DNA of 64,000 nt from Cornus controversa (lineage: Eukaryota; Streptophyta; Magnoliopsida; Cornales; Cornaceae). Positions within the stretch are counted from its first letter, which is position 1. Each line of letters starts with the position of its first letter. The position numbers were made by a program, and so were the translations under genes. The stretch covers positions 9,790,501-9,854,500 of the forward strand of contig CM048847.1 in NCBI GenBank assembly GCA_026545225.1. Reading direction: 5' to 3'. Under the pieces are notes generated by a model that saw only the letters and a program-made list of their open reading frames with translations, did not search any database and had not been told where the DNA came from. Below, piece after piece: positions 4,662-48,664 of this stretch.

Positions 4662-4666
4662 TATGC
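4662..4666. repeat. Left target site duplication (TATGC) of the tandem array
   Basis: TATGC abuts the TG of the first LTR at 4667 and recurs directly after the CA of the eighth LTR (48660-48664). Five base pairs is the normal duplication size for LTR retrotransposon integrase. Removing the array and one copy rejoins the gypsy pol frame. Confidence 0.93.
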
Positions 4667-5222
4667 TGATCGGCGTTGAATGTTACGCATTCTAGCCTCT
4701 TAACTTATGTATTTTATTCTCTTAGTGATAGATTATTTTGTGATTTTACTTTGTTTTAGTGTTTTCTGTATTTTCAGGGCCTTAATGATTATTTCAGTTA
4801 AAACCAGGATTTTGGGCTTTTAAAGAAGACATCCAAGATGGTGAGATGAAGCCTACATCAAGGAGATTCACTCAACCATTTATTTCAACTCAAATCAGCC
4901 CAAGGAAGAGGTCCAAGAGAATTACAACTGCTTAAGAAGGTTTCGGGCCTGAAGCCCAAATCTGCGCATAATGCAGTCTTAATCCCGTTTTGGAAAACGG
5001 ACCAGAAGTCTTATTTCCGAGCCTCAAATCGACATAATTTACGCGTGGGGTTGAACGAAATTTGATTCTGCACACTTTTGTATTTCACGAAAATTCCGTG
5101 AATCGGACTTCTAGTGGGTCAAAAGTTGGGCCGAAGTTAGCAGGAAAAACCCACCTGATTAGTGCTGCGGGAAACCCTAATTTATTCCTAATTGGATTAG
5201 GACTTTGATGTATTCTCTTGGT

Positions 5223-5230
5223 TATTTAAA
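5223..5230 (+). promoter_or_regulatory. TATA-like box in the array LTR
   Basis: TATTTAAA lies 556 bases into the LTR and is repeated at the same offset in all eight LTRs (for example 11305). The diverged relative has TATAAAG at the matching place. Transcription would start about 30 bases downstream. The start site itself is inferred. Confidence 0.55.
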
Positions 5231-5455
5231 GTGACAAATTGGGGCTGTATTGAGGAGGCTTGGCAGCAGCTTTGAAGAGCTTTTGGAATAGAGAATCATT
5301 GGAGAACAAGGCGTATCATGAGCGGCTAGTTCAGCCACCAGGGTTCTGATGGAGCCCTAACTAAACATCACTGGTTTGATTGTTCTAATTATTGGGGATT
5401 TTTGTATTCATTCATAGATTGTGTAATTTAGAGGATTCTTATTATTGAATTGAGC

Positions 5456-5461
5456 AATAAA
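5456..5461 (+). terminator. Polyadenylation signal AATAAA in the array LTR
   Basis: AATAAA lies 789 bases into the LTR, downstream of the TATA-like box, and is conserved in all LTRs (for example 48015-48020). It would end transcripts in the R region of the next LTR. Leaky use would give multi-unit transcripts. Confidence 0.5.
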
Positions 5462-6105
5462 AGTCTTATAAATTCAGTTTCAATGATTTCTTATCTTGTC
5501 TTAGATACTTGATTGTTGTTATTGAACTCGTCCCTCTTATTTTCTGTGATCATGAGAGTGATTATTACACAATGGTTTTCACTGAATATATCATTAAAAT
5601 CTTTGATGGATTATGCCTAGAGAAGATGAACCATACTGCACCCTAGATTAGAGTAGTTAGGCAGATGGCTCATGCCAATCGAAGATAGTCCATGACTTAG
5701 CCTTAATCATATGTTATCTTCTTGACGGATGGAGGTGAGCTTGTAGCCACCGACACCACTTATGCATGATATGATGCCCCATAGTTAGTTCAATTGACCC
5801 TTGATTGTGAAGTTAGTGGTGAAATCAATTACCCTAGACTTATCTTATATTCTCTACACTCCTTAGTTTTTCTTGCTTTTGTTCAATTGCTTCATTAGTT
5901 AATTTAGAATTAAAAATCAGAACTTATTTCTTTTAAATTTAATTAGAATTAGTCCTAACAATTCAACACAGTCAGACCATAGTCCTTGAGGTTCGACACC
6001 CATTCCTTTCGATAGCCCTATTCTGCAAGGAATTCGTTCTATTGCGAAGTGTGGAAATTTTAATTGATATACTTTTTGAGTCACACTCACACACGAATCA
6101 ATTTT

Positions 6106-6123
6106 TGGCGCCGTTGCCGGGGA
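6106..6123 (+). other. Primer binding site for tRNA-Asp (unit 1)
   Basis: TGGCGCCGTTGCCGGGGA begins five bases after the LTR. Its first 17 bases are the exact complement of the 3' end of plant cytosolic tRNA-Asp, from memory of that tRNA (ending CCCCGGCAACGGCGCCA). Identical sites occur in the other units at 12188-12205, 18271-18288, 24349-24366, 30426-30443, 36507-36524 and 42586-42603. All seven are intact, so each unit could in principle prime reverse transcription. Confidence 0.9.
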
Positions 6124-6412
6124 CTGTCTATTTGATTGTTTGGATTTTTAGAATTAGTTCTAATTGGATTTTTAGTTTAGGAAATTTTTTTTTTATTATT
6201 TTTATTAATTTTCTTTTATTTTTTTATTTATTTTATTTTTGTTTTCTTTTCAATTACTAATTAGTTTTATTTTATTTTTTAGTTTAGAATTTTTTTTTAT
6301 TTGCTACTAACCTAATTTTTTTTTATTTTTTTATTTTTTATTTTTCTTTTATTTTTCTTTCCGGTACATCAATCACCATACCATTGAGCAAGAGGAAGAG
6401 ATTATTTACATC
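6124..6412 (+). other. T-rich untranslated leader (unit 1)
   Basis: Between the primer site and gag lies about 290 bp dominated by T runs with scattered A, and no coding signal. It is the most length-variable part of the unit. Units 1 and 2 have an extra 11-bp T-rich block just before CCGGTACATC, which units 3-7 lack. Units 3-6 have a pure T run where units 1, 2 and 7 have an interrupting A. Confidence 0.7.
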
Positions 6413-8251
6413 ATGGATGGTGTGCGTGGTAATACTGAGGACAACAATATTGTGCCTAATGCTGTTGTGGAAAAAGCGAGATTGATCAGAGACTACTATG
6501 TCCCAGAGACTTATAATTCACCAGCTGATTTTCAATTGCCTGATGTCACTGCACAGAACTATGAGATCAAGCCCAGTATCATTCATATGTTGCCATCCTA
6601 TTTTGGGTTGACTCATGAGGATCCGTACAAGCACTTGGATGAATTTTTAGAAGTTTGCTCATTAACGAAAATTCACAACTTCTCTGAAGATGCTTTTCGG
6701 ATGCGACTCTTTCCATTCTCTCTAAAGGAAAAGGCCAAGTATTGGTTCAGATCTCTACCGGCGAGCTCTATCACTACATGGACTCAAATGCAAAATGAAT
6801 TTTTGAAGAAATATTTTCCGATAGGGAGGACCAATCAATTCAGACGAGCTATCACTAGTTTCTCTCAATTTGAGGGGGAACAATTTTTTGAGACATGGGA
6901 GAGATTCAAGGACCTTCTTAGGAAGTGTCCTCATCATCAAGTTCCAATGTGGCAGTTAGTGCAATGTTTCTATGAAGGGCTAACTGAAGGTAACAGACAG
7001 ATGGTTGATGCGTCATGTGGAGGTACTTTTATGTTGAAGAGTGAAGAAGAGGCATGGACCTTATTTGAAAATCTTAGTGACAACTCTCTACAACATGTGT
7101 CCTCTACTCGTTCTAGCAGACCAACCCATTCAAGGAAGGAAGATGATATTTTTGAGATTGGTTCTGCAGATGCTATGTCTACCATTGTGGATGCTGTGGC
7201 ACAAAGAGTGGTGCAACTCATGGCGGGTTGTCAAGTGCCTAATCAATCTTCATATCCTTCTATTTTTGAGCCATGTGCTTTTTGCTCGAGTCCTATGCAT
7301 CATATGAATAATTGCCCTTCAATTGGGCAGTTTGTCGATCTTCCACAAGGACAAGGGGGAGCAATTCAGCCCACTTTTCAACCTCAGAACTATGTGCCTT
7401 CACAATTATATCAAGAACAAGTTCCTATGGCACAGAGGTATTCAGCCATTGAGGACAAGATGACAATTGTCCTAGAAAAACTTGAGAAGCTTGACTCTAT
7501 TATCGAGATAGTGCAAGCTACTGCAGCAAAAGTTCAATCCACAACTCAACTGGTTTATTCTCATTCTCAATCGATTGCCAAACTGGAATTTCAGTTTGGA
7601 CAACTTGTCAATGCCGTGAGTAAAAGAGAAGAGGAGAAACTACCAAGCCAACCAGTTGCCAACCCAAGAGGGGTTCATGTCCTTAACAATATTTCTTCTT
7701 CAAGTAACCCACACCATGAACAATTTCAAGCCATCACCACTTTTAGAAGTGGAGAAATAAGTGACAACAAGGTGGGGGAGAAGAAGCTTGTTGAAGAAGA
7801 AGTGCCAAAGAGTCCAAATGTTGAAATTTCTCATGAGCCTAAGGTGAAATTGAATACTTTTAATGCCATTCAACATCCTTTAGATGAGAGTGATTGTTTC
7901 TTCATGGATGGCTTTGATGATTATATTGAAGAAGTTGATCCGGTTGCTCTATCACATGATGTTGAGAATTCCACTAAGGGGGTGAATAATTTACTTGATG
8001 TAGTGGTCATGAAAAATACTCCACCTTGGAGGATTCCGATTGAGCCATTGCCTATTCTTTCTAGCATTCCTTCAATGCCATCATTAGAGTCTCCTCCATG
8101 GGTAAAATTGAAACATGTTCCGTCAAGGGAGAGAGATGTGTTTTTTGAAGCCAATGACACCATTCCGATCACTTTGAGTTCAACCCAAGGAGGTGAGGAT
8201 CATATAGGAGGAACAAAGTTAAATCTCCTCAAGAGATGTGGCATTGGGTGA
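6413..8251 (+). CDS. Gag protein of the array element, unit 1
   Basis: A 612-residue Gag, the structural protein that would form the virus-like particle and package element RNA. Residues about 60-225 form a retrotransposon Gag capsid domain (KYWFRSLP, FLKKYFP, FFETWERFKDLLRKCPHH). A CCHC zinc knuckle sits at C288, C291, H296, C301. Residues about 345-405 have a heptad-like, probably coiled-coil pattern. The C-terminal part resembles the linker found between protease and RT in Athila-type polyproteins (TTFRSGE near 442-448; segment 555-591 ending in TIPITLSS). A protease motif and RT are absent, so pol seems deleted rather than shifted. The start is the first ATG after the T-rich leader. The ORF is undamaged and the protein is identical in all seven units. 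Family placement is by motif recognition, not by search. Confidence 0.9.
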   Translation: MDGVRGNTEDNNIVPNAVVEKARLIRDYYVPETYNSPADFQLPDVTAQNYEIKPSIIHMLPSYFGLTHEDPYKHLDEFLEVCSLTKIHNFSEDAFRMRLFPFSLKEKAKYWFRSLPASSITTWTQMQNEFLKKYFPIGRTNQFRRAITSFSQFEGEQFFETWERFKDLLRKCPHHQVPMWQLVQCFYEGLTEGNRQMVDASCGGTFMLKSEEEAWTLFENLSDNSLQHVSSTRSSRPTHSRKEDDIFEIGSADAMSTIVDAVAQRVVQLMAGCQVPNQSSYPSIFEPCAFCSSPMHHMNNCPSIGQFVDLPQGQGGAIQPTFQPQNYVPSQLYQEQVPMAQRYSAIEDKMTIVLEKLEKLDSIIEIVQATAAKVQSTTQLVYSHSQSIAKLEFQFGQLVNAVSKREEEKLPSQPVANPRGVHVLNNISSSSNPHHEQFQAITTFRSGEISDNKVGEKKLVEEEVPKSPNVEISHEPKVKLNTFNAIQHPLDESDCFFMDGFDDYIEEVDPVALSHDVENSTKGVNNLLDVVVMKNTPPWRIPIEPLPILSSIPSMPSLESPPWVKLKHVPSRERDVFFEANDTIPITLSSTQGGEDHIGGTKLNLLKRCGIG

Positions 8252-10735
8252 ACTTTCAATTGAAGTCGATGACCGTCTCCTACGGACGTTAAATTGTAGG
8301 ATTTGTATGTATTTCTATCCTTTAATTTCTTTAGTTTTCTTTTATTTTTATTTTTATTTTATTTTGTTTTATTTTATTATTTTTAGTTTATGTTTTTCTT
8401 TAGTTTCTTTCAATTCTAGTTGCGTTTTAATATTTTTTTCTTTGAGTTTTTGATGTATAAGTTGCTTCCGGAGGATGCCAAGAGGTGTACCGAGGTATTT
8501 GGACTCAAAATAGGTGAAAAAGAGAGGTCTCGGTCGACCTTGGGCGATGGACCCTCCAAAAATACCCTTCCCGGTCGACCCTTGGCGATAGATACTTAAC
8601 AAGCTCCAGCAGGGGGGATCGATCGCCCCTTTGAAGGGGGATCGATCGCCCCCATTATTTGACAAAGAGAACAGGCAACCAGCTGGGCGATCGATCGCCC
8701 AGCCCATGGGGGATCGATCGCCCCAGCCCCAACATGCCCAACTGCTCTGATTTTGTGCTATTTCGCTCCCTCTTCACAACTTATATGCTCCCACTTGAAA
8801 ATGCATCACTTTGGTGACTCTCCAACATCAAAATACACTCTCAAAATATTTCATAACACTACTTGATCATCATCATTCATCACCATCTTCATCTATTCCA
8901 ATCTATTTTTCTCCATCCTCATTAAATGATCAATTTTCTCAAATTTCTTCTTCACAAGGAAGTAGACTTTGTTTGAAAAATTGGTTGGATTTCTTTGAGA
9001 GGTTTTGTGCTACAAGTTTGGGGGAGGACATTGCACATTAAATGTGGACTAGTTGGTTGATTTTGATGCAACATTCCGGCCATGACTTAGATGCTTCGGC
9101 ACCACCTTTTCCTTGATTTTTTTCGGAGGTAACTATCTTTTGTATTTTTATTTTTATTTTTAATTTTCTTTTCTTTATTTTGTTTTTCATATTATTTTTT
9201 TTATTTAGTTTCAAAAAAAAAAAAAAAAAAAATTTATTTCATATTTATTTTCACCCATACTATTTCACTTGGTCTTTGGGGTATAGTGGTTTATTTTGAC
9301 AGGTTGTAACATCCAAGTTTGGGGGTGTGCTTGCATTGCCTTCATACAACTTGGTGTGCTCTATTTTCTTGCCACTCATTCTCCGGATTCCTGGTATTAT
9401 CGTTCTTACTCCTCTCTATGCTTTGATTGATAGTACATTGAGGACAATGTACAGTTTAAGTTTGGGGGTGAGGCGATGCCTATTTTTGTGCTTTATTGCA
9501 ATATGGGGGGAAATTTGTGTGAAATTCTTCTTGTTTTAGGATTTTTATTTATTTTATTTTCTTAGTTTATTTTTTATTTTCTTTTGTTTTATTTTTAGAT
9601 AGAATGTTTTGACATCATTCAAGGGATTAATACCTTATGTAGGTGCTTAACTTGCAATTTTTGAGTATGTTTGAAATTTTTGAAAACTGTGGTTTAAATT
9701 AAGTGGTTTTAATCATGATTTGCAATAACATGTTTTGAAGTGATTGATTTTAGTTTCCTTACATGCACAAACACACTAGCATAATTTTGTGAGGTATAAA
9801 TCTATGTTTTGAGTTATTGAGTTACATATGCTTGATATTAATTAGTATCTCTTGAGAATGAGTACCAATGATGTGTTTTACTTGACTTCAATGAAAAAGA
9901 AAAAAAAAGAAGAAAAAGAAAAAAGAAAAAAAAGTGATGAATAAGCAAATCAATTTGATCCTTTTCATGAGTAACCGGGCCTCTATGCCTCAGGAAGCAC
10001 GGAGTGTTCGCGTCAAAAGTGAAAAGGTGAGAAAAGATGAGCATTGGTTGTCTTGATTTGTAGCCTGACTGATTCGAGTAATTAGGTCTTCGGGGTATCT
10101 TAAAGCCTAGTGCCCTAAAGCCATCTGGCTTGGGAGTCATTGACCGAAAGCTTGCTACATGGATCTTTCAGAAAGCTTAATAGATCAAGACATTGCACAA
10201 CCAATAAAGCAATGAAAAAAAGAATGATGAAAAAAAAAATGAAAAAGTCATGTATGCATGTTGGGAAGTATGAGTTCAATAAGGGGAGTTAGTGAGTTGA
10301 AGGGGTATGTGCCTTAATATATTCAGAACTTGGTTATGCTACATGAGATGACTGCTAGTTCACTTTACACGAGGAAGCTAGAGTTGATTATTTTGAGATA
10401 TGTTGATGTGAATTATGTGTGGGGACCATTGATTTGAATTATAGAATTTGAAAGTTTGAAATTATTCTTGAATGCAAGTTTGTAACTATGTATTGTAATT
10501 TTCTTCTTGAATTAATGTTGAAACAGAATTTTGAATGTTTGTGGGTAACATTTCTGGAAACCCTCACGAGACTATACTCGTCCACTAGGGGGAACCTAGG
10601 GGTTTAAAGGCTTGTTGCATATGCTAAATGCAATCGTTTCTCCCACGAAAGTGGAGTTAGGTAGTTTAGTTAGTGTTTAGTAGTTTCTTTGTTTTAGTTT
10701 TGTTTTATTCTATTGCTAAGGGACTAGCAATATGT
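8252..10735 (+). other. Long non-coding 3' region of unit 1
   Basis: About 2.5 kb with no credible gene. Soon after the gag stop, a short stretch ending GGACGTTAAATTG (about 8285-8297) recalls the segment that follows integrase in Athila-like elements. Next come T-rich runs, the GATCGATCGC cluster (8612-8724), three AAGTTTGGGGG motifs (9014, 9315, 9458), a 20-base A run (9213-9232) and a purine stretch (about 9891-9932). A conserved block around 9961-10140 is also seen in the diverged relative at 49601. Open frames here (for example 8369-8707 and 9838-10140 on the minus strand) lack domains. The same layout holds in every unit. Confidence 0.7.
8532..8724. repeat. GC-rich palindrome cluster (unit 1)
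   Basis: Two GGTCGACC palindromes (8532-8539, 8573-8580) are followed by four copies of a GATCGATC-centred motif flanked by G and C runs, at about 8614, 8636, 8683 and 8708. The third is a perfect 22-bp palindrome (8682-8703) with core GGGCGATCGATCGCCC. It is a GC-rich island in a very AT-rich element and recurs in each unit (for example 14614-14806, 20694-20886, 26772-26964). In units 3 and 4 one A is G (20803 and 26881), breaking the second copy. Confidence 0.85.
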
Positions 10736-10746
10736 AAGTTTGGGGG
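10736..10746 (+). other. Polypurine tract before LTR 2
   Basis: AAGTTTGGGGG followed by TG lies immediately before the LTR start at 10749. Equivalent sites are at 16818, 22896, 28974, 35054, 41134 and 47213, and at 50329 in the diverged relative. The T-interrupted purine run is typical of this element type. Confidence 0.75.
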
Positions 10747-10748
10747 TG

Positions 10749-12182
10749 TGATCGGCGTTGAATGTTACGCATTCTAGCCTCTTAACTTATGTATTTTATT
10801 CTCTTAGTGATAGATTATTTTGTGATTTTACTTTGTTTTAGTGTTTTCTGTATTTTCAGGGCCTTAATGATTATTTCAGTTAAAACCAGGATTTTGGGCT
10901 TTTAAAGAAGACATCCAAGATGGTGAGATGAAGCCTACATCAAGGAGATTCACTCAACCATTTATTTCAACTCAAATCAGCCCAAGGAAGAGGTCCAAGA
11001 GAATTACAACTGCTTAAGAAGGTTTCGGGCCTGAAGCCCAAATCTGCGCATAATGCAGTCTTAATCCCGTTTTGGAAAACGGACCAGAAGTCTTATTTCC
11101 GAGCCTCAAATTGACATAATTTACGCGTGGGGTTGAACGAAATTTGATTCTGCACACTTTTGTATTTCACGAAAATTCCGTGAATCGGACTTCTAGTGGG
11201 TCAAAAGTTGGGCCGAAGTTAGCAGGAAAAACCCACCTGATTAGTGCTGCGGGAAACCCTAATTTATTCCTAATTGGATTAGGACTTTGATGTATTCTCT
11301 TGGTTATTTAAAGTGACAAATTGGGGCTGTATTGAGGAGGCTTGGCAGCAGCTTTGAAGAGCTTTTGGAATAGAGAATCATTGGAGAACAAGGCGTATCA
11401 TGAGCGGCTAGTTCAGCCACCAGGGTTCTGATGGAGCCCTAACTAAACATCACTGGTTTGATTGTTCTAATTATTGGGGATTTTTGTATTCATTCATAGA
11501 TTGTGTAATTTAGAGGATTCTTATTATTGAATTGAGCAATAAAAGTCTTATAAATTCAGTTTCAATGATTTCTTATCTTGTCTTAGATACTTGATTGTTG
11601 TTATTGAACTCGTCCCTCTTATTTTCTGTGATCATGAGAGTGATTATTACACAATGGTTTTCACTGAATATATCATTAAAATCTTTGATGGATTATGCCT
11701 AGAGAAGATGAACCATACTGCACCCTAGATTAGAGTAGTTAGGCAGATGGCTCATGCCAATCGAAGATAGTCCATGACTTAGCCTTAATCATATGTTATC
11801 TTCTTGACGGATGGAGGTGAGCTTGTAGCCACCGACACCACTTATGCATGATATGATGCCCCATAGTTAGTTCAATTGACCCTTGATTGTGAAGTTAGTG
11901 GTGAAATCAATTACCCTAGACTTATCTTATATTCTCTACACTCCTTAGTTTTTCTTGCTTTTGTTCAATTGCTTCATTAGTTAATTTAGAATTAAAAATC
12001 AGAACTTATTTCTTTTAAATTTAATTAGAATTAGTCCTAACAATTCAACACAGTCAGACCATAGTCCTTGAGGTTCGACACCCATTCCTTTCGATAGCCC
12101 TATTCTGCAAGGAATTCGTTCTATTGCGAAGTGTGGAAATTTTAATTGATATACTTTTTGAGTCACACTCACACACGAATCA
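10749..12182 (+). repeat. Array LTR 2
   Basis: 1434 bp; carries a private T at 11112 (TCAAATTGACA instead of TCAAATCGACA). Otherwise it has the LTR 1 haplotype at the C/T and T-insertion markers. Confidence 0.93.
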
Positions 12183-12494
12183 ATTTTTGGCGCCGTTGCC
12201 GGGGACTGTCTATTTGATTGTTTGGATTTTTAGAATTAGTTCTAATTGGATTTTTAGTTTAGGAAATTTTTTTTTTATTATTTTTATTAATTTTCTTTTA
12301 TTTTTTTATTTTTTTTATTTTTGTTTTCTTTTCAATTACTAATTAGTTTTATTTTATTTTTTAGTTTAGAATTTTTTTTTATTTGCTACTAACCTAATTT
12401 TTTTTTATTTTTTTATTTTTTATTTTTCTTTTATTTTTCTTTCCGGTACATCAATCACCATACCATTGAGCAAGAGGAAGAGATTATTTACATC

Positions 12495-14333
12495 ATGGAT
12501 GGTGTGCGTGGTAATACTGAGGACAACAATATTGTGCCTAATGCTGTTGTGGAAAAAGCGAGATTGATCAGAGACTACTATGTCCCAGAGACTTATAATT
12601 CACCAGCTGATTTTCAATTGCCTGATGTCACTGCACAGAACTATGAGATCAAGCCCAGTATCATTCATATGTTGCCATCCTATTTTGGGTTGACTCATGA
12701 GGATCCGTACAAGCACTTGGATGAATTTTTAGAAGTTTGCTCATTAACGAAAATTCACAACTTCTCTGAAGATGCTTTTCGGATGCGACTCTTTCCATTC
12801 TCTCTAAAGGAAAAGGCCAAGTATTGGTTCAGATCTCTACCGGCGAGCTCTATCACTACATGGACTCAAATGCAAAATGAATTTTTGAAGAAATATTTTC
12901 CGATAGGGAGGACCAATCAATTCAGACGAGCTATCACTAGTTTCTCTCAATTTGAGGGGGAACAATTTTTTGAGACATGGGAGAGATTCAAGGACCTTCT
13001 TAGGAAGTGTCCTCATCATCAAGTTCCAATGTGGCAGTTAGTGCAATGTTTCTATGAAGGGCTAACTGAAGGTAACAGACAGATGGTTGATGCGTCATGT
13101 GGAGGTACTTTTATGTTGAAGAGTGAAGAAGAGGCATGGACCTTATTTGAAAATCTTAGTGACAACTCTCTACAACATGTGTCCTCTACTCGTTCTAGCA
13201 GACCAACCCATTCAAGGAAGGAAGATGATATTTTTGAGATTGGTTCTGCAGATGCTATGTCTACCATTGTGGATGCTGTGGCACAAAGAGTGGTGCAACT
13301 CATGGCGGGTTGTCAAGTGCCTAATCAATCTTCATATCCTTCTATTTTTGAGCCATGTGCTTTTTGCTCGAGTCCTATGCATCATATGAATAATTGCCCT
13401 TCAATTGGGCAGTTTGTCGATCTTCCACAAGGACAAGGGGGAGCAATTCAGCCCACTTTTCAACCTCAGAACTATGTGCCTTCACAATTATATCAAGAAC
13501 AAGTTCCTATGGCACAGAGGTATTCAGCCATTGAGGACAAGATGACAATTGTCCTAGAAAAACTTGAGAAGCTTGACTCTATTATCGAGATAGTGCAAGC
13601 TACTGCAGCAAAAGTTCAATCCACAACTCAACTGGTTTATTCTCATTCTCAATCGATTGCCAAACTGGAATTTCAGTTTGGACAACTTGTCAATGCCGTG
13701 AGTAAAAGAGAAGAGGAGAAACTACCAAGCCAACCAGTTGCCAACCCAAGAGGGGTTCATGTCCTTAACAATATTTCTTCTTCAAGTAACCCACACCATG
13801 AACAATTTCAAGCCATCACCACTTTTAGAAGTGGAGAAATAAGTGACAACAAGGTGGGGGAGAAGAAGCTTGTTGAAGAAGAAGTGCCAAAGAGTCCAAA
13901 TGTTGAAATTTCTCATGAGCCTAAGGTGAAATTGAATACTTTTAATGCCATTCAACATCCTTTAGATGAGAGTGATTGTTTCTTCATGGATGGCTTTGAT
14001 GATTATATTGAAGAAGTTGATCCGGTTGCTCTATCACATGATGTTGAGAATTCCACTAAGGGGGTGAATAATTTACTTGATGTAGTGGTCATGAAAAATA
14101 CTCCACCTTGGAGGATTCCGATTGAGCCATTGCCTATTCTTTCTAGCATTCCTTCAATGCCATCATTAGAGTCTCCTCCATGGGTAAAATTGAAACATGT
14201 TCCGTCAAGGGAGAGAGATGTGTTTTTTGAAGCCAATGACACCATTCCGATCACTTTGAGTTCAACCCAAGGAGGTGAGGATCATATAGGAGGAACAAAG
14301 TTAAATCTCCTCAAGAGATGTGGCATTGGGTGA
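12495..14333 (+). CDS. Gag protein, unit 2
   Basis: Translation is identical to unit 1 over all 612 residues. The unit shares with unit 1 the extra 11-bp block in the leader, so units 1 and 2 are sister copies. Its leader differs by one base (TTTTTTATTTTTTTTATT in place of an ATTTATTTTATT form). Confidence 0.9.
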   Translation: MDGVRGNTEDNNIVPNAVVEKARLIRDYYVPETYNSPADFQLPDVTAQNYEIKPSIIHMLPSYFGLTHEDPYKHLDEFLEVCSLTKIHNFSEDAFRMRLFPFSLKEKAKYWFRSLPASSITTWTQMQNEFLKKYFPIGRTNQFRRAITSFSQFEGEQFFETWERFKDLLRKCPHHQVPMWQLVQCFYEGLTEGNRQMVDASCGGTFMLKSEEEAWTLFENLSDNSLQHVSSTRSSRPTHSRKEDDIFEIGSADAMSTIVDAVAQRVVQLMAGCQVPNQSSYPSIFEPCAFCSSPMHHMNNCPSIGQFVDLPQGQGGAIQPTFQPQNYVPSQLYQEQVPMAQRYSAIEDKMTIVLEKLEKLDSIIEIVQATAAKVQSTTQLVYSHSQSIAKLEFQFGQLVNAVSKREEEKLPSQPVANPRGVHVLNNISSSSNPHHEQFQAITTFRSGEISDNKVGEKKLVEEEVPKSPNVEISHEPKVKLNTFNAIQHPLDESDCFFMDGFDDYIEEVDPVALSHDVENSTKGVNNLLDVVVMKNTPPWRIPIEPLPILSSIPSMPSLESPPWVKLKHVPSRERDVFFEANDTIPITLSSTQGGEDHIGGTKLNLLKRCGIG

Positions 14334-18265: not shown

Positions 18266-18574
18266 ATTTTTGGCGCCGTTGCCGGGGACTGTCTATTTGA
18301 TTGTTTGGATTTTTAGAATTAGTTCTAATTGGATTTTTAGTTTAGGAAATTTTTTTTTTATTATTTTTATTAATTTTCTTTTATTTTTTTATTTTTTTAT
18401 TTATTTTATTTTTGTTTTCTTTTCAATTACTAATTAGTTTTATTTTTTTTTTTAGTTTAGAATTTTTTTTTATTTGCTACTAACCTAATTTTTTTTTATT
18501 TTTTTATTTTTTATTTTTCTTTCCGGTACATCAATCACCATACCATTGAGCAAGAGGAAGAGATTATTTACATC

Positions 18575-30420: not shown

Positions 30421-30729
30421 ATTTTTGGCGCCGTTGCCGGGGACTGTCTATTTGATTGTTTGGATTTTTAGAATTAGTTCTAATTGGATTTTTAGTTTAG
30501 GAAATTTTTTTTTTATTATTTTTATTAATTTTCTTTTATTTTTTTATTTTTTTATTTATTTTATTTTTGTTTTCTTTTCAATTACTAATTAGTTTTATTT
30601 TTTTTTTTAGTTTAGAATTTTTTTTTATTTGCTACTAACCTAATTTTTTTTTATTTTTTTATTTTTTATTTTTCTTTCCGGTACATCAATCACCATACCA
30701 TTGAGCAAGAGGAAGAGATTATTTACATC

Positions 30730-36501: not shown

Positions 36502-36810
36502 ATTTTTGGCGCCGTTGCCGGGGACTGTCTATTTGATTGTTTGGATTTTTAGAATTAGTTCTAATTGGATTTTTAGTTTAGGAAATTTTTTTTTTATTAT
36601 TTTTATTAATTTTCTTTTATTTTTTTATTTTTTTATTTATTTTATTTTTGTTTTCTTTTCAATTACTAATTAGTTTTATTTTTTTTTTTAGTTTAGAATT
36701 TTTTTTTATTTGCTACTAACCTAATTTTTTTTTATTTTTTTATTTTTTATTTTTCTTTCCGGTACATCAATCACCATACCATTGAGCAAGAGGAAGAGAT
36801 TATTTACATC

Positions 36811-38649: not shown

Positions 38650-41146
38650 ACTTTCAATTGAAGTCGATGACCGTCTCCTACGGACGTTAAATTGTAGGAT
38701 TTGTATGTATTTCTATCCTTTAATTTCTTTAGTTTTCTTTTATTTTTATTTTTATTTTATTTTGTTTTATTTTATTATTTTTAGTTTATGTTTTTCTTTA
38801 GTTTCTTTCAATTCTAGTTGCGTTTTAATATTTTTTTCTTTGAGTTTTTGATGTATAAGTTGCTTCCGGAGGATGCCAAGAGGTGTACCGAGGTATTTGG
38901 ACTCAAAATAGGTGAAAAAGAGAGGTCTCGGTCGACCTTGGGCGATGGACCCTCCAAAAATACCCTTCCCGGTCGACCCTTGGCGATAGATACTTAACAA
39001 GCTCCAGCAGGGGGGATCGATCGCCCCTTTGAAGGGGGATCGATCGCCCCCATTATTTGACAAAGAGAACAGGCAACCAGCTGGGCGATCGATCGCCCAG
39101 CCCATGGGGGATCGATCGCCCCAGCCCCAACATGCCCAACTGCTCTGATTTTGTGCTATTTCGCTCCCTCTTCACAACTTATATGCTCCCACTTGAAAAT
39201 GCATCACTTTGGTGACTCTCCAACATCAAAATACACTCTCAAAATATTTCATAACACTACTTGATCATCATCATTCATCACCATCTTCATCTATTCCAAT
39301 CTATTTTTCTCCATCCTCATTAAATGATCAATTTTCTCAAATTTCTTCTTCACAAGGAAGTAGACTTTGTTTGAAAAATTGGTTGGATTTCTTTGAGAGG
39401 TTTTGTGCTACAAGTTTAGGGGAGGACATTGCACATTAAATGTGGACTAGTTGGTTGATTTTGATGCAACATTCCGGCCATGACTTAGATGCTTCGGCAC
39501 CACCTTTTCCTTGATTTTTTTCGGAGGTAACTATCTTTTGTATTTTTATTTTTATTTTTAATTTTCTTTTCTTTATTTTGTTTTTCATATTATTTTTTTT
39601 ATTTAGTTTCAAAAAAAAAAAAAAAAAAAATTTATTTCATATTTATTTTCACCTATACTATTTCACTTGGTCTTTGGGGTATAGTGGTTTATTTTGACAG
39701 GTTGTAACATCCAAGTTTGGGGGTGTGCTTGCATTGCCTTCATACAACTTGGTGTGCTCTATTTTCTTGCCACTCATTCTCCGGATTCCTGGTATTATCG
39801 TTCTTACTCCTCTCTATGCTTTGATTGATAGTACATTGAGGACAATGTACAGTTTAAGTTTGGGGGTGAGGCGATGCCTATTTTTGTGCTTTATTGCAAT
39901 ATGGGGGGAAATTTGTGTGAAATTCTTCTTGTTTTAGGATTTTTATTTATTTTATTTTCTTAGTTTATTTTTTATTTTCTTTTGTTTTATTTTTAGATAG
40001 AATGTTTTGACATCATTCAAGGGATTAATACCTTATGTAGGTGCTTAACTTGCAATTTTTGAGTATGTTTGAAATTTTTGAAAACTGTGGTTTAAATTAA
40101 GTGGTTTTAATCATGATTTGCAATAACATGTTTTGAAGTGATTGATTTTAGTTTCCTTACATGCACAAACACACTAGCATAATTTTGTGAGGTATAAATC
40201 TATGTTTTGAGTTATTGAGTTACATATGCTTGATATTAATTAGTATCTCTTGAGAATGAGTACCAATGATGTGTTTTACTTGACTTCAATGAAAAAGAAA
40301 AAAAAAGAAGAAAAAGAAAAAAGAAAAAAAAGTGATGAATAAGCAAATCAATTTGATCCTTTTCATGAGTAACCGGGCCTCTATGCCTCAGGAAGCACGG
40401 AGTGTTCGCGTCAAAAGTGAAAAGGTGAGAAAAGATGAGCATTGGTTGTCTTGATTTGTAGCCTGACTGATTCGAGTAATTAGGTCTTCGGGGTATCTTA
40501 AAGCCTAGTGCCCTAAAGCCATCTGGCTTGGGAGTCATTGACCGAAAGCTTGCTACATGGATCTTTCAGAAAGCTTAATAGATCAAGACATTGCACAACC
40601 AATAAAGCAATGAAAAAAAGAATGATGAAAAAAAAAATGAAAAAGTCATGTATGCATGTTGGGAAGTATGAGTTCAATAAGGGGAGTTAGTGAGTTGAAG
40701 GGGTATGTGCCTTAATATATTCAGAACTTGGTTATGCTACATGAGATGACTGCTAGTTCACTTTACACGAGGAAGCTAGAGTTGATTATTTTGAGATATG
40801 TTGATGTGAATTATGTGTGGGGACCATTGATTTGAATTATAGAATTTGAAAGTTTGAAATTATTCTTGAATGCAAGTTTGTAACTATGTATTGTAATTTT
40901 CTTCTTGAATTAATGTTGAAACAGAATTTTGAATGTTTGTGGGTAACATTTCTGGAAACCCTCACGAGACTATACTCGTCCACTAGGGGGAACCTAGGGG
41001 TTTAAAGGCTTGTTGCATATGCTAAATGCAATCGTTTCTCCCACGAAAGTGGAGTTAGGTAGTTTAGTTAGTGTTTAGTAGTTTCTTTGTTTTAGTTTTG
41101 TTTTATTCTATTGCTAAGGGACTAGCAATATGTAAGTTTGGGGGTG

Positions 41147-42580
41147 TGATCGGCGTTGAATGTTACGCATTCTAGCCTCTTAACTTATGTATTTTATTCT
41201 CTTAGTGATAGATTATTTTGTGATTTTACTTTGTTTTAGTGTTTTCTGTATTTTCAGGGCCTTAATGATTATTTCAGTTAAAACCAGGATTTTGGGCTTT
41301 TAAAGAAGACATCCAAGATGGTGAGATGAAGCCTACATCAAGGAGATTCACTCAACCATTTATTTCAACTCAAATCAGCCCAAGGAAGAGGTCCAAGAGA
41401 ATTACAACTGCTTAAGAAGGTTTCGGGCCTGAAGCCCAAATCTGCGCATAATGCAGTCTTAATCCCGTTTTGGAAAACGGACCAGAAGTCTTATTTCCGA
41501 GCCTCAAATCGACATAATTTACGCGTGGGGTTGAACGAAATTTGATTCTGCACACTTTTGTATTTCACGAAAATTCCGTGAATCGGACTTCTAGTGGGTC
41601 AAAAGTTGGGCCGAAGTTAGCAGGAAAAACCCACCTGATTAGTGCTGCGGGAAACCCTAATTTATTCCTAATTGGATTAGGACTTTGATGTATTCTCTTG
41701 GTTATTTAAAGTGACAAATTGGGGCTGTATTGAGGAGGCTTGGCAGCAGCTTTGAAGAGCTTTTGGAATAGAGAATCATTGGAGAACAAGGCGTATCATG
41801 AGCGGCTAGTTCAGCCACCAGGGTTCTGATGGAGCCCTAACTAAACATCACTGGTTTGATTGTTCTAATTATTGGGGATTTTTGTATTCATTCATAGATT
41901 GTGTAATTTAGAGGATTCTTATTATTGAATTGAGCAATAAAAGTCTTATAAATTCAGTTTCAATGATTTCTTATCTTGTCTTAGATACTTGATTGTTGTT
42001 ATTGAACTCGTCCCTCTTATTTTCTGTGATCATGAGAGTGATTATTACACAATGGTTTTCACTGAATATATCATTAAAATCTTTGATGGATTATGCCTAG
42101 AGAAGATGAACCATACTGCACCCTAGATTAGAGTAGTTAGGCAGATGGCTCATGCCAATCGAAGATAGTCCATGACTTAGCCTTAATCATATGTTATCTT
42201 CTTGACGGATGGAGGTGAGCTTGTAGCCACCGACACCACTTATGCATGATATGATGCCCCATAGTTAGTTCAATTGACCCTTGATTGTGAAGTTAGTGGT
42301 GAAATCAATTACCCTAGACTTATCTTATATTCTCTACACTCCTTAGTTTTTCTTGCTTTTGTTCAATTGCTTCATTAGTTAATTTAGAATTAAAAATCAG
42401 AACTTATTTCTTTTAAATTTAATTAGAATTAGTCCTAACAATTCAACACAGTCAGACCATAGTCCTTGAGGTTCGACACCCATTCCTTTCGATAGCCCTA
42501 TTCTGCAAGGAATTCGTTCTATTGCGAAGTGTGGAAATTTTAATTGATATACTTTTTGAGTCACACTCACACACGAATCA
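41147..42580 (+). repeat. Array LTR 7
   Basis: 1434 bp; C / no-extra-T haplotype with T in AAAATCTTTG, like LTR 1. Confidence 0.93.
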
Positions 42581-42889
42581 ATTTTTGGCGCCGTTGCCGG
42601 GGACTGTCTATTTGATTGTTTGGATTTTTAGAATTAGTTCTAATTGGATTTTTAGTTTAGGAAATTTTTTTTTTATTATTTTTATTAATTTTCTTTTATT
42701 TTTTTATTTTTTTATTTATTTTATTTTTGTTTTCTTTTCAATTACTAATTAGTTTTATTTTATTTTTTAGTTTAGAATTTTTTTTTATTTGCTACTAACC
42801 TAATTTTTTTTTATTTTTTTATTTTTTATTTTTCTTTCCGGTACATCAATCACCATACCATTGAGCAAGAGGAAGAGATTATTTACATC

Positions 42890-44728
42890 ATGGATGGTGT
42901 GCGTGGTAATACTGAGGACAACAATATTGTGCCTAATGCTGTTGTGGAAAAAGCGAGATTGATCAGAGACTACTATGTCCCAGAGACTTATAATTCACCA
43001 GCTGATTTTCAATTGCCTGATGTCACTGCACAGAACTATGAGATCAAGCCCAGTATCATTCATATGTTGCCATCCTATTTTGGGTTGACTCATGAGGATC
43101 CGTACAAGCACTTGGATGAATTTTTAGAAGTTTGCTCATTAACGAAAATTCACAACTTCTCTGAAGATGCTTTTCGGATGCGACTCTTTCCATTCTCTCT
43201 AAAGGAAAAGGCCAAGTATTGGTTCAGATCTCTACCGGCGAGCTCTATCACTACATGGACTCAAATGCAAAATGAATTTTTGAAGAAATATTTTCCGATA
43301 GGGAGGACCAATCAATTCAGACGAGCTATCACTAGTTTCTCTCAATTTGAGGGGGAACAATTTTTTGAGACATGGGAGAGATTCAAGGACCTTCTTAGGA
43401 AGTGTCCTCATCATCAAGTTCCAATGTGGCAGTTAGTGCAATGTTTCTATGAAGGGCTAACTGAAGGTAACAGACAGATGGTTGATGCGTCATGTGGAGG
43501 TACTTTTATGTTGAAGAGTGAAGAAGAGGCATGGACCTTATTTGAAAATCTTAGTGACAACTCTCTACAACATGTGTCCTCTACTCGTTCTAGCAGACCA
43601 ACCCATTCAAGGAAGGAAGATGATATTTTTGAGATTGGTTCTGCAGATGCTATGTCTACCATTGTGGATGCTGTGGCACAAAGAGTGGTGCAACTCATGG
43701 CGGGTTGTCAAGTGCCTAATCAATCTTCATATCCTTCTATTTTTGAGCCATGTGCTTTTTGCTCGAGTCCTATGCATCATATGAATAATTGCCCTTCAAT
43801 TGGGCAGTTTGTCGATCTTCCACAAGGACAAGGGGGAGCAATTCAGCCCACTTTTCAACCTCAGAACTATGTGCCTTCACAATTATATCAAGAACAAGTT
43901 CCTATGGCACAGAGGTATTCAGCCATTGAGGACAAGATGACAATTGTCCTAGAAAAACTTGAGAAGCTTGACTCTATTATCGAGATAGTGCAAGCTACTG
44001 CAGCAAAAGTTCAATCCACAACTCAACTGGTTTATTCTCATTCTCAATCGATTGCCAAACTGGAATTTCAGTTTGGACAACTTGTCAATGCCGTGAGTAA
44101 AAGAGAAGAGGAGAAACTACCAAGCCAACCAGTTGCCAACCCAAGAGGGGTTCATGTCCTTAACAATATTTCTTCTTCAAGTAACCCACACCATGAACAA
44201 TTTCAAGCCATCACCACTTTTAGAAGTGGAGAAATAAGTGACAACAAGGTGGGGGAGAAGAAGCTTGTTGAAGAAGAAGTGCCAAAGAGTCCAAATGTTG
44301 AAATTTCTCATGAGCCTAAGGTGAAATTGAATACTTTTAATGCCATTCAACATCCTTTAGATGAGAGTGATTGTTTCTTCATGGATGGCTTTGATGATTA
44401 TATTGAAGAAGTTGATCCGGTTGCTCTATCACATGATGTTGAGAATTCCACTAAGGGGGTGAATAATTTACTTGATGTAGTGGTCATGAAAAATACTCCA
44501 CCTTGGAGGATTCCGATTGAGCCATTGCCTATTCTTTCTAGCATTCCTTCAATGCCATCATTAGAGTCTCCTCCATGGGTAAAATTGAAACATGTTCCGT
44601 CAAGGGAGAGAGATGTGTTTTTTGAAGCCAATGACACCATTCCGATCACTTTGAGTTCAACCCAAGGAGGTGAGGATCATATAGGAGGAACAAAGTTAAA
44701 TCTCCTCAAGAGATGTGGCATTGGGTGA
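42890..44728 (+). CDS. Gag protein, unit 7
   Basis: Intact, identical protein. The 3' region matches unit 6 (A at 45497, T at 45733). The leader is a hybrid: it lacks the 11-bp block like units 3-6, but has the A-interrupted TTTTATTTTATTTTTTAG run of units 1 and 2. Confidence 0.9.
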   Translation: MDGVRGNTEDNNIVPNAVVEKARLIRDYYVPETYNSPADFQLPDVTAQNYEIKPSIIHMLPSYFGLTHEDPYKHLDEFLEVCSLTKIHNFSEDAFRMRLFPFSLKEKAKYWFRSLPASSITTWTQMQNEFLKKYFPIGRTNQFRRAITSFSQFEGEQFFETWERFKDLLRKCPHHQVPMWQLVQCFYEGLTEGNRQMVDASCGGTFMLKSEEEAWTLFENLSDNSLQHVSSTRSSRPTHSRKEDDIFEIGSADAMSTIVDAVAQRVVQLMAGCQVPNQSSYPSIFEPCAFCSSPMHHMNNCPSIGQFVDLPQGQGGAIQPTFQPQNYVPSQLYQEQVPMAQRYSAIEDKMTIVLEKLEKLDSIIEIVQATAAKVQSTTQLVYSHSQSIAKLEFQFGQLVNAVSKREEEKLPSQPVANPRGVHVLNNISSSSNPHHEQFQAITTFRSGEISDNKVGEKKLVEEEVPKSPNVEISHEPKVKLNTFNAIQHPLDESDCFFMDGFDDYIEEVDPVALSHDVENSTKGVNNLLDVVVMKNTPPWRIPIEPLPILSSIPSMPSLESPPWVKLKHVPSRERDVFFEANDTIPITLSSTQGGEDHIGGTKLNLLKRCGIG

Positions 44729-47225
44729 ACTTTCAATTGAAGTCGATGACCGTCTCCTACGGACGTTAAATTGTAGGATTTGTATGTATTTCTATCCTTT
44801 AATTTCTTTAGTTTTCTTTTATTTTTATTTTTATTTTATTTTGTTTTATTTTATTATTTTTAGTTTATGTTTTTCTTTAGTTTCTTTCAATTCTAGTTGC
44901 GTTTTAATATTTTTTTCTTTGAGTTTTTGATGTATAAGTTGCTTCCGGAGGATGCCAAGAGGTGTACCGAGGTATTTGGACTCAAAATAGGTGAAAAAGA
45001 GAGGTCTCGGTCGACCTTGGGCGATGGACCCTCCAAAAATACCCTTCCCGGTCGACCCTTGGCGATAGATACTTAACAAGCTCCAGCAGGGGGGATCGAT
45101 CGCCCCTTTGAAGGGGGATCGATCGCCCCCATTATTTGACAAAGAGAACAGGCAACCAGCTGGGCGATCGATCGCCCAGCCCATGGGGGATCGATCGCCC
45201 CAGCCCCAACATGCCCAACTGCTCTGATTTTGTGCTATTTCGCTCCCTCTTCACAACTTATATGCTCCCACTTGAAAATGCATCACTTTGGTGACTCTCC
45301 AACATCAAAATACACTCTCAAAATATTTCATAACACTACTTGATCATCATCATTCATCACCATCTTCATCTATTCCAATCTATTTTTCTCCATCCTCATT
45401 AAATGATCAATTTTCTCAAATTTCTTCTTCACAAGGAAGTAGACTTTGTTTGAAAAATTGGTTGGATTTCTTTGAGAGGTTTTGTGCTACAAGTTTAGGG
45501 GAGGACATTGCACATTAAATGTGGACTAGTTGGTTGATTTTGATGCAACATTCCGGCCATGACTTAGATGCTTCGGCACCACCTTTTCCTTGATTTTTTT
45601 CGGAGGTAACTATCTTTTGTATTTTTATTTTTATTTTTAATTTTCTTTTCTTTATTTTGTTTTTCATATTATTTTTTTTATTTAGTTTCAAAAAAAAAAA
45701 AAAAAAAAATTTATTTCATATTTATTTTCACCTATACTATTTCACTTGGTCTTTGGGGTATAGTGGTTTATTTTGACAGGTTGTAACATCCAAGTTTGGG
45801 GGTGTGCTTGCATTGCCTTCATACAACTTGGTGTGCTCTATTTTCTTGCCACTCATTCTCCGGATTCCTGGTATTATCGTTCTTACTCCTCTCTATGCTT
45901 TGATTGATAGTACATTGAGGACAATGTACAGTTTAAGTTTGGGGGTGAGGCGATGCCTATTTTTGTGCTTTATTGCAATATGGGGGGAAATTTGTGTGAA
46001 ATTCTTCTTGTTTTAGGATTTTTATTTATTTTATTTTCTTAGTTTATTTTTTATTTTCTTTTGTTTTATTTTTAGATAGAATGTTTTGACATCATTCAAG
46101 GGATTAATACCTTATGTAGGTGCTTAACTTGCAATTTTTGAGTATGTTTGAAATTTTTGAAAACTGTGGTTTAAATTAAGTGGTTTTAATCATGATTTGC
46201 AATAACATGTTTTGAAGTGATTGATTTTAGTTTCCTTACATGCACAAACACACTAGCATAATTTTGTGAGGTATAAATCTATGTTTTGAGTTATTGAGTT
46301 ACATATGCTTGATATTAATTAGTATCTCTTGAGAATGAGTACCAATGATGTGTTTTACTTGACTTCAATGAAAAAGAAAAAAAAAGAAGAAAAAGAAAAA
46401 AGAAAAAAAAGTGATGAATAAGCAAATCAATTTGATCCTTTTCATGAGTAACCGGGCCTCTATGCCTCAGGAAGCACGGAGTGTTCGCGTCAAAAGTGAA
46501 AAGGTGAGAAAAGATGAGCATTGGTTGTCTTGATTTGTAGCCTGACTGATTCGAGTAATTAGGTCTTCGGGGTATCTTAAAGCCTAGTGCCCTAAAGCCA
46601 TCTGGCTTGGGAGTCATTGACCGAAAGCTTGCTACATGGATCTTTCAGAAAGCTTAATAGATCAAGACATTGCACAACCAATAAAGCAATGAAAAAAAGA
46701 ATGATGAAAAAAAAAATGAAAAAGTCATGTATGCATGTTGGGAAGTATGAGTTCAATAAGGGGAGTTAGTGAGTTGAAGGGGTATGTGCCTTAATATATT
46801 CAGAACTTGGTTATGCTACATGAGATGACTGCTAGTTCACTTTACACGAGGAAGCTAGAGTTGATTATTTTGAGATATGTTGATGTGAATTATGTGTGGG
46901 GACCATTGATTTGAATTATAGAATTTGAAAGTTTGAAATTATTCTTGAATGCAAGTTTGTAACTATGTATTGTAATTTTCTTCTTGAATTAATGTTGAAA
47001 CAGAATTTTGAATGTTTGTGGGTAACATTTCTGGAAACCCTCACGAGACTATACTCGTCCACTAGGGGGAACCTAGGGGTTTAAAGGCTTGTTGCATATG
47101 CTAAATGCAATCGTTTCTCCCACGAAAGTGGAGTTAGGTAGTTTAGTTAGTGTTTAGTAGTTTCTTTGTTTTAGTTTTGTTTTATTCTATTGCTAAGGGA
47201 CTAGCAATATGTAAGTTTGGGGGTG

Positions 47226-48659
47226 TGATCGGCGTTGAATGTTACGCATTCTAGCCTCTTAACTTATGTATTTTATTCTCTTAGTGATAGATTATTTTGT
47301 GATTTTACTTTGTTTTAGTGTTTTCTGTATTTTCAGGGCCTTAATGATTATTTCAGTTAAAACCAGGATTTTGGGCTTTTAAAGAAGACATCCAAGATGG
47401 TGAGATGAAGCCTACATCAAGGAGATTCACTCAACCATTTATTTCAACTCAAATCAGCCCAAGGAAGAGGTCCAAGAGAATTACAACTGCTTAAGAAGGT
47501 TTCGGGCCTGAAGCCCAAATCTGCGCATAATGCAGTCTTAATCCCGTTTTGGAAAACGGACCAGAAGTCTTATTTCCGAGCCTCAAATCGACATAATTTA
47601 CGCGTGGGGTTGAACGAAATTTGATTCTGCACACTTTTGTATTTCACGAAAATTCCGTGAATCGGACTTCTAGTGGGTCAAAAGTTGGGCCGAAGTTAGC
47701 AGGAAAAACCCACCTGATTAGTGCTGCGGGAAACCCTAATTTATTCCTAATTGGATTAGGACTTTGATGTATTCTCTTGGTTATTTAAAGTGACAAATTG
47801 GGGCTGTATTGAGGAGGCTTGGCAGCAGCTTTGAAGAGCTTTTGGAATAGAGAATCATTGGAGAACAAGGCGTATCATGAGCGGCTAGTTCAGCCACCAG
47901 GGTTCTGATGGAGCCCTAACTAAACATCACTGGTTTGATTGTTCTAATTATTGGGGATTTTTGTATTCATTCATAGATTGTGTAATTTAGAGGATTCTTA
48001 TTATTGAATTGAGCAATAAAAGTCTTATAAATTCAGTTTCAATGATTTCTTATCTTGTCTTAGATACTTGATTGTTGTTATTGAACTCGTCCCTCTTATT
48101 TTCTGTGATCATGAGAGTGATTATTACACAATGGTTTTCACTGAATATATCATTAAAAGCTTTGATGGATTATGCCTAGAGAAGATGAACCATACTGCAC
48201 CCTAGATTAGAGTAGTTAGGCAGATGGCTCATGCCAATCGAAGATAGTCCATGACTTAGCCTTAATCATATGTTATCTTCTTGACGGATGGAGGTGAGCT
48301 TGTAGCCACCGACACCACTTATGCATGATATGATGCCCCATAGTTAGTTCAATTGACCCTTGATTGTGAAGTTAGTGGTGAAATCAATTACCCTAGACTT
48401 ATCTTATATTCTCTACACTCCTTAGTTTTTCTTGCTTTTGTTCAATTGCTTCATTAGTTAATTTAGAATTAAAAATCAGAACTTATTTCTTTTAAATTTA
48501 ATTAGAATTAGTCCTAACAATTCAACACAGTCAGACCATAGTCCTTGAGGTTCGACACCCATTCCTTTCGATAGCCCTATTCTGCAAGGAATTCGTTCTA
48601 TTGCGAAGTGTGGAAATTTTAATTGATATACTTTTTGAGTCACACTCACACACGAATCA
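47226..48659 (+). repeat. Array LTR 8 (outer right)
   Basis: 1434 bp, ending CACACGAATCA directly at the TATGC duplication with no primer site after it. That marks it as the true 3' end of the inserted structure. It shares G (48159) with LTR 5 only. Confidence 0.93.
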
Positions 48660-48664
48660 TATGC
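48660..48664. repeat. Right target site duplication (TATGC)
   Basis: Exact copy of 4662-4666, directly after the CA end of LTR 8. Confidence 0.93.

Follow-up and report, generated by a model that had tools for sequence, protein, structure and literature searches.

Seven head-to-tail units of a gag-only LTR retrotransposon inside one target site duplication in Cornus controversa

How do seven complete copies of one LTR retrotransposon come to stand head to tail, sharing their LTRs, at a single chromosomal site? The available text of PMC11899658 states the origin of shared-LTR tandems, by complex insertion or by later recombination, as an open matter. We analysed a window of 64,000 nucleotides from contig CM048847.1 of Cornus controversa, which contains no N; positions are those of the window and feature coordinates are collected in Table 1.

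Self-BLAST and alignment resolved eight LTRs and seven internal regions that alternate head to tail, with an LTR at each end. All the sequence between the outer duplications amounts to 43,993 bp. The LTRs are 1434-1435 bp long, the internal regions 4643-4648 bp, and the period is 6078-6082 bp. Self-BLAST shifts of 6082, 12164, 18242, 24320, 30400, 36480 and 42559 bp gave identities, in the same order, of 99.876% (one unit), 99.771%, 99.752%, 99.695%, 99.640% (five units), 99.694% (six units) and 99.930%; the last covers one LTR only, and the others tend downward with distance. The PPT gtaagtttgggggtg precedes the LTR at 7/7 inner 5' LTR borders and ATTTT followed by the PBS stands after it at 7/7 inner 3' borders, with the PBS TGGCGCCGTTGCCGGGG after LTR1-7 and the PPT AGTTTGGGGGTG before LTR2-8. 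For an array of 44 kb, chance occurrence is no concern.

TATGC lies immediately 5' of LTR1 and immediately 3' of LTR8, and at none of the 14 inner junctions checked. When the flanks are joined without the array, an antisense Ty3/gypsy pol is read in a single frame through the join, indicating one integration site; RNase H precedes the insertion site in this frame, integrase follows it, and the right-hand part terminates at one stop. Alternating LTRs and internal regions, one outer duplication and continuous flanks make the array a tandem LTR-retrotransposon with shared LTRs. A sequence-only reading of this DNA had counted eight LTRs and seven internal regions with a period near 6.08 kb, which proved exact to the base, and its placing of TATGC on the outermost ends alone holds. 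Duplications between units, which it had set against its own interpretation, were sought at the same 14 junctions and none was found, and the single insertion with shared LTRs that it proposed is backed by the outer TATGC and the pol frame across the joined flanks.

Among the best 120 of 7986 matches to the host integrase, the top ones have 92% identity over 81% of the query and 80% over the entire query, and the named ones are scattered across flowering plants. Two of those listed carry bacterial labels, which we take as contamination.

Table 1. Features of the array and its surroundings (positions in the window)
Feature	Position	Strand	Basis
Left target site duplication TATGC	4662..4666	.	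Array border, flank join
LTR1, 1434 bp; no variable column vs LTR7	4667..6100	+	LTR alignment
Internal region I1, 4648 bp; PBS at 6106, PPT at 10737	6101..10748	+	Alignment
gag ORF unit 1, 612 aa from first ATG to stop	6413..8251	+	Retrotrans_gag PF03732, E 8.8e-21
gag ORFs units 2-4	12495-14333, 18575-20413, 24653-26491	+	Protein same as unit 1
gag ORFs units 5-7	30730-32568, 36811-38649, 42890-44728	+	Protein same as unit 1
LTR2, common to units 1 and 2	10749..12182	+	LTR alignment
Internal region I2	12183..16830	+	Internal-region alignment
LTR3, 1435 bp	16831..18265	+	LTR alignment
Internal region I3; no variable column vs I4	18266..22908	+	Internal-region alignment
LTR4; no variable column vs LTR3	22909..24343	+	LTR alignment
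Internal region I4	24344..28986	+	Internal-region alignment
LTR5; G at LTR position 934, otherwise in LTR8 only	28987..30420	+	LTR alignment
Internal region I5	30421..35066	+	Internal-region alignment
LTR6; no variable column vs LTR3, LTR4	35067..36501	+	LTR alignment
Internal region I6	36502..41146	+	Internal-region alignment
LTR7; no variable column vs LTR1	41147..42580	+	LTR alignment
Internal region I7	42581..47225	+	Internal-region alignment
LTR8	47226..48659	+	LTR alignment
Right target site duplication TATGC	48660..48664	.	Array border
Host element: integrase part, antisense Ty3/gypsy pol, left of array	4006..4659	-	PF17921, E 5e-22; PF00665, E 2.7e-6 (under curated cut-off)
Host element: RNase H + reverse transcriptase end, right of array	48919..49701	-	PF17919, PF17917, E ~1e-29; PF00078, E 8.8e-7 (slightly under its cut-off)
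Older related fragment: 3' internal-region part + first 529 bp of LTR	49599..50870	+	~89% alike overall, ~85% across its LTR part

The repeated element is of the gag-only TR-GAG type: it has LTRs, a PBS, a PPT and one gag ORF, and no pol domain in the ORFs scanned. The sequence-only reading had neither classed the element as gag-only nor named a TR-GAG tandem as its parallel, and did not mention that such tandems are regarded as common in plants. All seven gag ORFs encode one and the same 612-aa protein, which was scanned against Pfam as the unit 1 copy. No other stop-to-stop ORF of at least 150 aa lies entirely within the array. The search for pol was ORF-based: four of the seven smaller unit 1 ORFs (≥80 aa) were scanned and matched nothing in Pfam at E values up to 5, the remaining three overlapping gag. 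The gag domain suggests a Ty3/gypsy affinity, and the PBS is, we presume, complementary to tRNA-Asp. Among the best 120 of 138 gag relatives, identity is at most 64% where 15% of the query is covered and 62% where 48% is covered; the plants named there include Alnus, Chenopodium, Senna, Telopea and Victoria. No tRNA genes were found in the window. A Cassandra TRIM was considered and rejected, as the array has no 5S rRNA match at Rfam cut-offs, a gag ORF is present and the unit measures 6.08 kb.

Shared-LTR tandems, described as common in plants, were presented as known by the sequence-only reading, and published cases include a three-unit TR-GAG tandem (PMC11728184); the comparisons in this paragraph hold for the available portions of the sources. 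Tandems sharing inner LTRs occur in rice, Arabidopsis, almond and cotton, and gypsy elements are over-represented among those of rice (PMC11899658). Like the present array they alternate LTRs and internal regions within one 5-bp duplication, and one of the two loci detailed there, TLI2, has parts that are 99% identical and is nested inside another transposon; however, these two rice loci have two internal regions each, compared with seven here, and the scan admitted loci of at most 40,000 bp, a size that the present array exceeds (PMC11899658). LTRtype complex elements of Arabidopsis also include 10 LTR-IN-LTR-IN-LTR structures genome-wide, plus four elements with more than three LTRs (PMC5379124). 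TR-GAG elements share with ours two LTRs, a single gag ORF and the lack of pol, and AT5TE33540 of Arabidopsis, with a 562-aa Gag, shows that they can transpose, although it belongs to a Copia family whereas the present gag is of the PF03732 kind; the text available to us of PMC8704663 and PMC5818461, on which this comparison draws, describes no TR-GAG tandem array. The closest published parallel is the TR-GAG tandem of sunflower, in which Galadriel 13-1, 13-2 and 13-3 are likewise gag-only, tandem, near-identical and joined by mutual LTRs, but whose units, assigned to the Galadriel clade, number three rather than seven (PMC11728184). Cassandra TRIM arrays reach 12 units, but these are only ~0.5 kb each, lack gag and carry a 5S rRNA-like promoter, and the longest were detected by PCR (PMC7215508). 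The description of the array as unusually long holds beside the two internal regions of each detailed rice locus (PMC11899658) and the three sunflower elements (PMC11728184), the 12 units of Cassandra being short, and in the portions of the cited papers available to us we found no longer shared-LTR array of full-size units.

Variation among the units was used as a record of their history. We recorded 14 variable events, 5 in LTRs and 9 in internal regions, of which 10 are shared by at least two copies. Each of the seven shared internal events fills one unbroken stretch of adjacent units, and just 16 of 5040 unit orders (0.003) need equally few switches. Two of the runs overlap, units 3-6 at site 6274 and units 5-7 at site 9256, and fail the four-gamete test, indicating recombination or recurrent change among units. 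Two length changes near each other, of 8 bp and 11 bp, separate two internal haplotypes, I1-I2 and I3-I7. The LTR variants have no neighbour order, ~63% of unit orders being equally good: two changes are common to LTR3, LTR4 and LTR6 and absent in LTR5, and one is common to LTR5 and LTR8. At LTR site 1253 the base context was set aside on account of a register shift from the indel at 1179. Of the features of satellite-type concerted evolution, the head-to-tail array and the neighbour-shared internal variants are present; the LTR variants are unordered, and the units number only seven.

One of 1434 sites distinguishes LTR1 from LTR8, and two of ~4640 distinguish I1 from I7; mean pairwise substitution is 0.00102 for LTRs and 0.00045 for internal regions (excluding the substitution at 6230, which adjoins a length change). 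The internal divergence is therefore at or below the level expected of the original LTR pair. At substitution rates of 1.3e-8 and 7e-9, the estimated age is ~17,000-50,000 years, its LTR basis being one difference.

We think it probable that the array is a single TR-GAG insertion that grew by stepwise unequal exchange and conversion on the chromosome. One non-autonomous, gag-only element would have entered the pol of the older antisense gypsy element, creating the TATGC duplication; the starting state was presumably one unit, integrated by the enzymes of a partner element. Long identical LTRs may then have mispaired between sister chromatids or homologues, every unequal exchange adding one LTR and one internal region, to give LTR-I-LTR-I-LTR and eventually seven units. 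Continued exchange and conversion would carry new mutations to adjacent units and hold the array ~99.6-99.9% alike. We infer this sequence of steps, and to explain the unordered LTR variants we add the ad hoc idea that LTR5 was converted once from an LTR8-like copy.

The internal variant runs fit stepwise exchange and conversion better than a heptamer mutated solely after insertion. Simulated one-shot heptamers with independent mutations contained shared variants in 0 of 5000 arrays, as follows from the construction of the model, and with most observed events shared we rejected this process alone as a full account. Stepwise simulations, which were crude and used arbitrary exchange rules (59-214 of 600 runs qualified per rate, at five rates), yielded at least five shared variants, all contiguous, in just 7-18% of runs with 6-12 variants. 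This low yield, the unordered LTR variants and an outgroup that polarises one variant only, at LTR site 364, count against stepwise exchange. The sequence-only reading had allowed either exchange or a multimer; exchange stands as a leading route, and the internal runs disfavour the one-shot multimer that it had left open. The authors of PMC11899658 could not, in the portions available, separate insertion from recombination; the internal variants here lean to recombination.

It is unlikely that a ready-made multimer was integrated once with TATGC and acquired its variant pattern by later conversion between units. Such a multimer could be concatemeric cDNA, produced by template switching or from the read-through transcript of a template that was tandem or circular; it could also be the rolling-circle product of a one-LTR circle. 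The single duplication and the uniform units agree with it, the haplotypes I1-I2 and I3-I7 could reflect two templates, and a multimer homogenised after insertion is expected to have the same appearance. Proposals for plant tandems include template switching (PMC7215508) and the transcription of circular DNA into tandem RNAs (PMC11899658), and in the latter paper, as far as its available text goes, the authors were unable to choose between routes. However, a seven-unit cDNA would measure ~44 kb, and units made from one circle would be identical at first, so that independent mutation would give private rather than shared changes; the neighbour order of the internal variants would still require exchange on the chromosome.

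The count of seven is that of one assembly, and we consider it improbable that a genuine array was given a wrong number of units by collapse, expansion or the joining of two haplotypes. An 8545-bp stretch from 15297 recurs exactly one unit on, and LTR3-I3 is identical to LTR4-I4, which might mislead short or noisy reads. Neighbours other than units 3 and 4 nevertheless differ at definite sites, the next longest exact repeats found being 5464 bp, and the ordered series of internal variants is unlike the product of random mis-joining. Comparison at shifts no more than 10 bp away from a multiple of 6080 found no exact repeat within the array longer than 8545 bp, so the array could be resolved with accurate 10-20 kb reads. 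Far less credible still is a history in which the family inserted here at least twice independently and the copies were nested or became joined by recombination between their LTRs: the older related fragment lies less than 1 kb to the right in the same orientation, but it is just ~89% alike, TATGC matches at the outer ends and is absent at the inner junctions, and the host frame continues across the site once the flanks are joined. We rejected both joining by recombination and nesting on the outer duplication and the flank join.

The array is a new, long example of the published shared-LTR tandem structure, larger than the limit of at least one published scan (PMC11899658, in the text available). 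Seven units and 14 marker variants provide an internal record of history that is scarcely possible with two units; in the internal regions this record favours chromosomal exchange. At this single site a gag-only element has reached a copy number where the distinction between transposon and satellite blurs. The sequence-only reading saw here the birth of a megasatellite from one insertion, as an interpretation; that the TR-GAG insertion is a nascent megasatellite, expanding and contracting by unequal exchange in living populations, is a tentative and rather doubtful extension of the exchange reading. If it is true, each step would add a complete promoter-LTR and an intact gag gene, and the locus could become a heritable gag-dosage locus and the seed of a 6-kb satellite.

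Self-comparison of the window reveals a head-to-tail array in a single orientation at 4667-48659, made up of eight LTRs (LTR1-LTR8) of 1434-1435 bp each and seven internal regions (I1-I7) of 4643-4648 bp each, with units that measure, between successive LTR starts, 6082, 6082, 6078, 6078, 6080, 6080 and 6079 bp. A polypurine tract (PPT) immediately precedes the LTR at all seven inner 5' borders, and ATTTT and a primer binding site, which we take to match plant tRNA-Asp, immediately follow it at all seven inner 3' borders. The target site duplication TATGC was found at 0 of these 14 inner junctions. By LTR and internal-region boundaries and TATGC positions, the coordinates that the sequence-only reading gave for the array and its duplication are exact. 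The count of seven units is the assembly's; among shifts no more than 10 bp away from a multiple of 6080, the longest exact repeat found within the array is 8545 bp and the next longest are 5464 bp, so the order of the units is within reach of accurate long reads.

Features of the array and its flanks (positions within the window)
Feature	Position	Strand or units	Basis
TATGC, left of array	4662-4666		
TATGC, right of array	48660-48664		
Host integrase, left of array	4006-4704 (as scanned)	minus	Pfam domain scan
Host RNase H and reverse transcriptase end, right of array	48919-49701	minus	Pfam domain scan
Copia-like ORF	51665-52330	minus	Pfam scan
snoR71 (RF00097) match, unit 1; same place in other six units	6837-6942	minus	Rfam
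8-bp and 11-bp internal length changes		separate I1-I2 from I3-I7	
Internal variant	6274	I3-I6	
Internal variant, and shorter A run	8641	I3-I4	
Internal variant	9020	I6-I7	
Internal variant	9256	I5-I7	

The flanks are parts of an older Ty3/gypsy element in the orientation opposite to the array. Its RNase H and integrase zinc-binding domain matches are well over the Pfam cut-offs, and its reverse transcriptase and integrase core matches are under them. Joined with one TATGC, the flanks form the expected empty site, with a single frame running through the join and free of stops over about 80 residues upstream and about 220 downstream of it; this continuity argues against several independent insertions. 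Stops lie beyond the open stretch on both sides, indicating that the host element is decayed. The left flank also carries a tandem repeat (1728-1988; 92-bp unit, 2.8 copies), and an inverted pair about 70% alike, one member in each flank (2659-3221 and 59230-59785), is possibly derived from related old elements. At 49599-50870 lies an older copy of the array's own family, about 89% alike and in the same orientation, containing the 3' internal part and the LTR start and possibly extending to about 51000. Because a later LTR part has a 69% match at 56209-56364, a younger insertion with the copia-like ORF may have split this copy.

Variants were called from a piecewise alignment of the LTRs and internal regions separately. 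There are five variable columns in the LTRs and nine variable events in the internal regions (five substitutions, the 8-bp and 11-bp length changes and two A-run changes), and 10 of the 14 are common to at least two copies. The shared internal variants all form unbroken runs of neighbouring units (7/7), and when all 5040 unit orders were enumerated, 16 had equally few switches. For the overlapping runs at 6274 and 9020, and at 6274 and 9256, all four combinations are present, indicating exchange between units or repeated change at the same site. Identity tends downward with distance (self-BLAST: 99.876, 99.771, 99.752, 99.695, 99.640 and 99.694% for spacings of one to six units). LTR variants have no neighbour order, 63% of orders doing as well: two changes are common to LTR3, LTR4 and LTR6 and absent from LTR5, and one is common to LTR5 and LTR8. 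On a construction of our own, in which an LTR8-like copy converted LTR5, an LTR3-6 run would be restored, the same set as at site 6274. As a weak observation on a stretch chosen post hoc, 6347-8640 (unit 1 coordinates) and its equivalents, 2294 bp with the whole gag ORF inside, have no variant in any of the seven units, all 14 events lying elsewhere.

Unequal exchange between LTRs and integration of a multimer had both been proposed from the sequence, and the ordered internal variants favour the former over a multimer inserted in one step. We favour a single insertion of one element, whose LTRs would have paired out of register and so added whole units, with ongoing exchange that would have spread variants to neighbouring units. 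In a crude stepwise model, 7-18% of the runs with 6-12 variants had at least five that were shared, every shared one being contiguous. The lack of order among the LTR variants counts against such spread between neighbours. A heptamer inserted whole, with independent mutations alone, was rejected: it gave shared variants in 0 of 5000 simulated arrays against the 10 of 14 observed, a zero that follows from the simulation model itself. We set the rules of these simulations, which are a guide only. A multimer inserted whole and homogenised afterwards fits alike and would be expected to leave the same pattern in one individual; we consider it rather unlikely. LTR1 and LTR8 have 1 difference in 1434, and I1 and I7 have 2 in about 4640. 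At rates from the literature this corresponds to about 17,000-50,000 years, with wide error.

According to four reports, a rice pangenome contains 266 potential shared-LTR tandems, in a search of loci up to 40,000 bp that left their origin undecided (PMC11899658); in sunflower, three TR-GAG elements stand in tandem and share LTRs with one another (PMC11728184); PCR detected Cassandra arrays with as many as 12 short units (PMC7215508); and Arabidopsis has four elements with more than three LTRs (PMC5379124). The kind is therefore already known, as the sequence-only reading held, which called a chain of such length unusual. The two rice loci described have two internal regions apiece and the sunflower tandem three elements, whereas the Cornus controversa array has seven units, and it is longer and more informative than the full-size cases compared. 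That it records the birth of a megasatellite is a hypothesis.

Each unit has one long ORF, which in unit 1, the unit scanned, carries a Retrotrans_gag domain (PF03732, 8.8e-21). Translated from the first ATG, gag is an identical 612-residue protein in all seven units; among the best 120 of 138 matches its relatives come from many plants, and some are fusions with protease or reverse transcriptase domains. No further ORF of at least 150 codons lies wholly inside the array. Four of the seven smaller unit 1 ORFs (at least 80 codons) were scanned and had no Pfam match; the other three overlap gag. Since gag is the sole long ORF and the scanned smaller ORFs have no Pfam match, the element is, by its predicted coding content, of the gag-only, non-autonomous TR-GAG kind, a character absent from the earlier description. 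The non-coding part of unit 1 contains repeated palindromes at 8613-8724 (GGGGGATCGATCGCCCC and a close variant), the last pair of which is listed in all seven units. Four PPT-like copies (AAGTTTGGGGG) occur in unit 1, at 9007-9026, 9308-9327, 9451-9470 and 10729-10748, only the last adjoining an LTR; three of the four are present in each of the seven units.

Every one of the seven units has a match to Rfam RF00097 (snoR71) on the strand antisense to gag (46.2 bits, cut-off 40). When reverse-complemented, the printed RF00097 consensus reads as an open 35-residue frame, which itself scores 26.8 bits for Retrotrans_gag, over the Pfam cut-off of 24.1, and for this reason RF00097 as modelled looks like antisense retrotransposon gag mislabelled as a snoRNA family. 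Among the papers searched, three mention snoR71 and none pairs it with "retrotransposon". Plant snoR71 annotations are worth checking.
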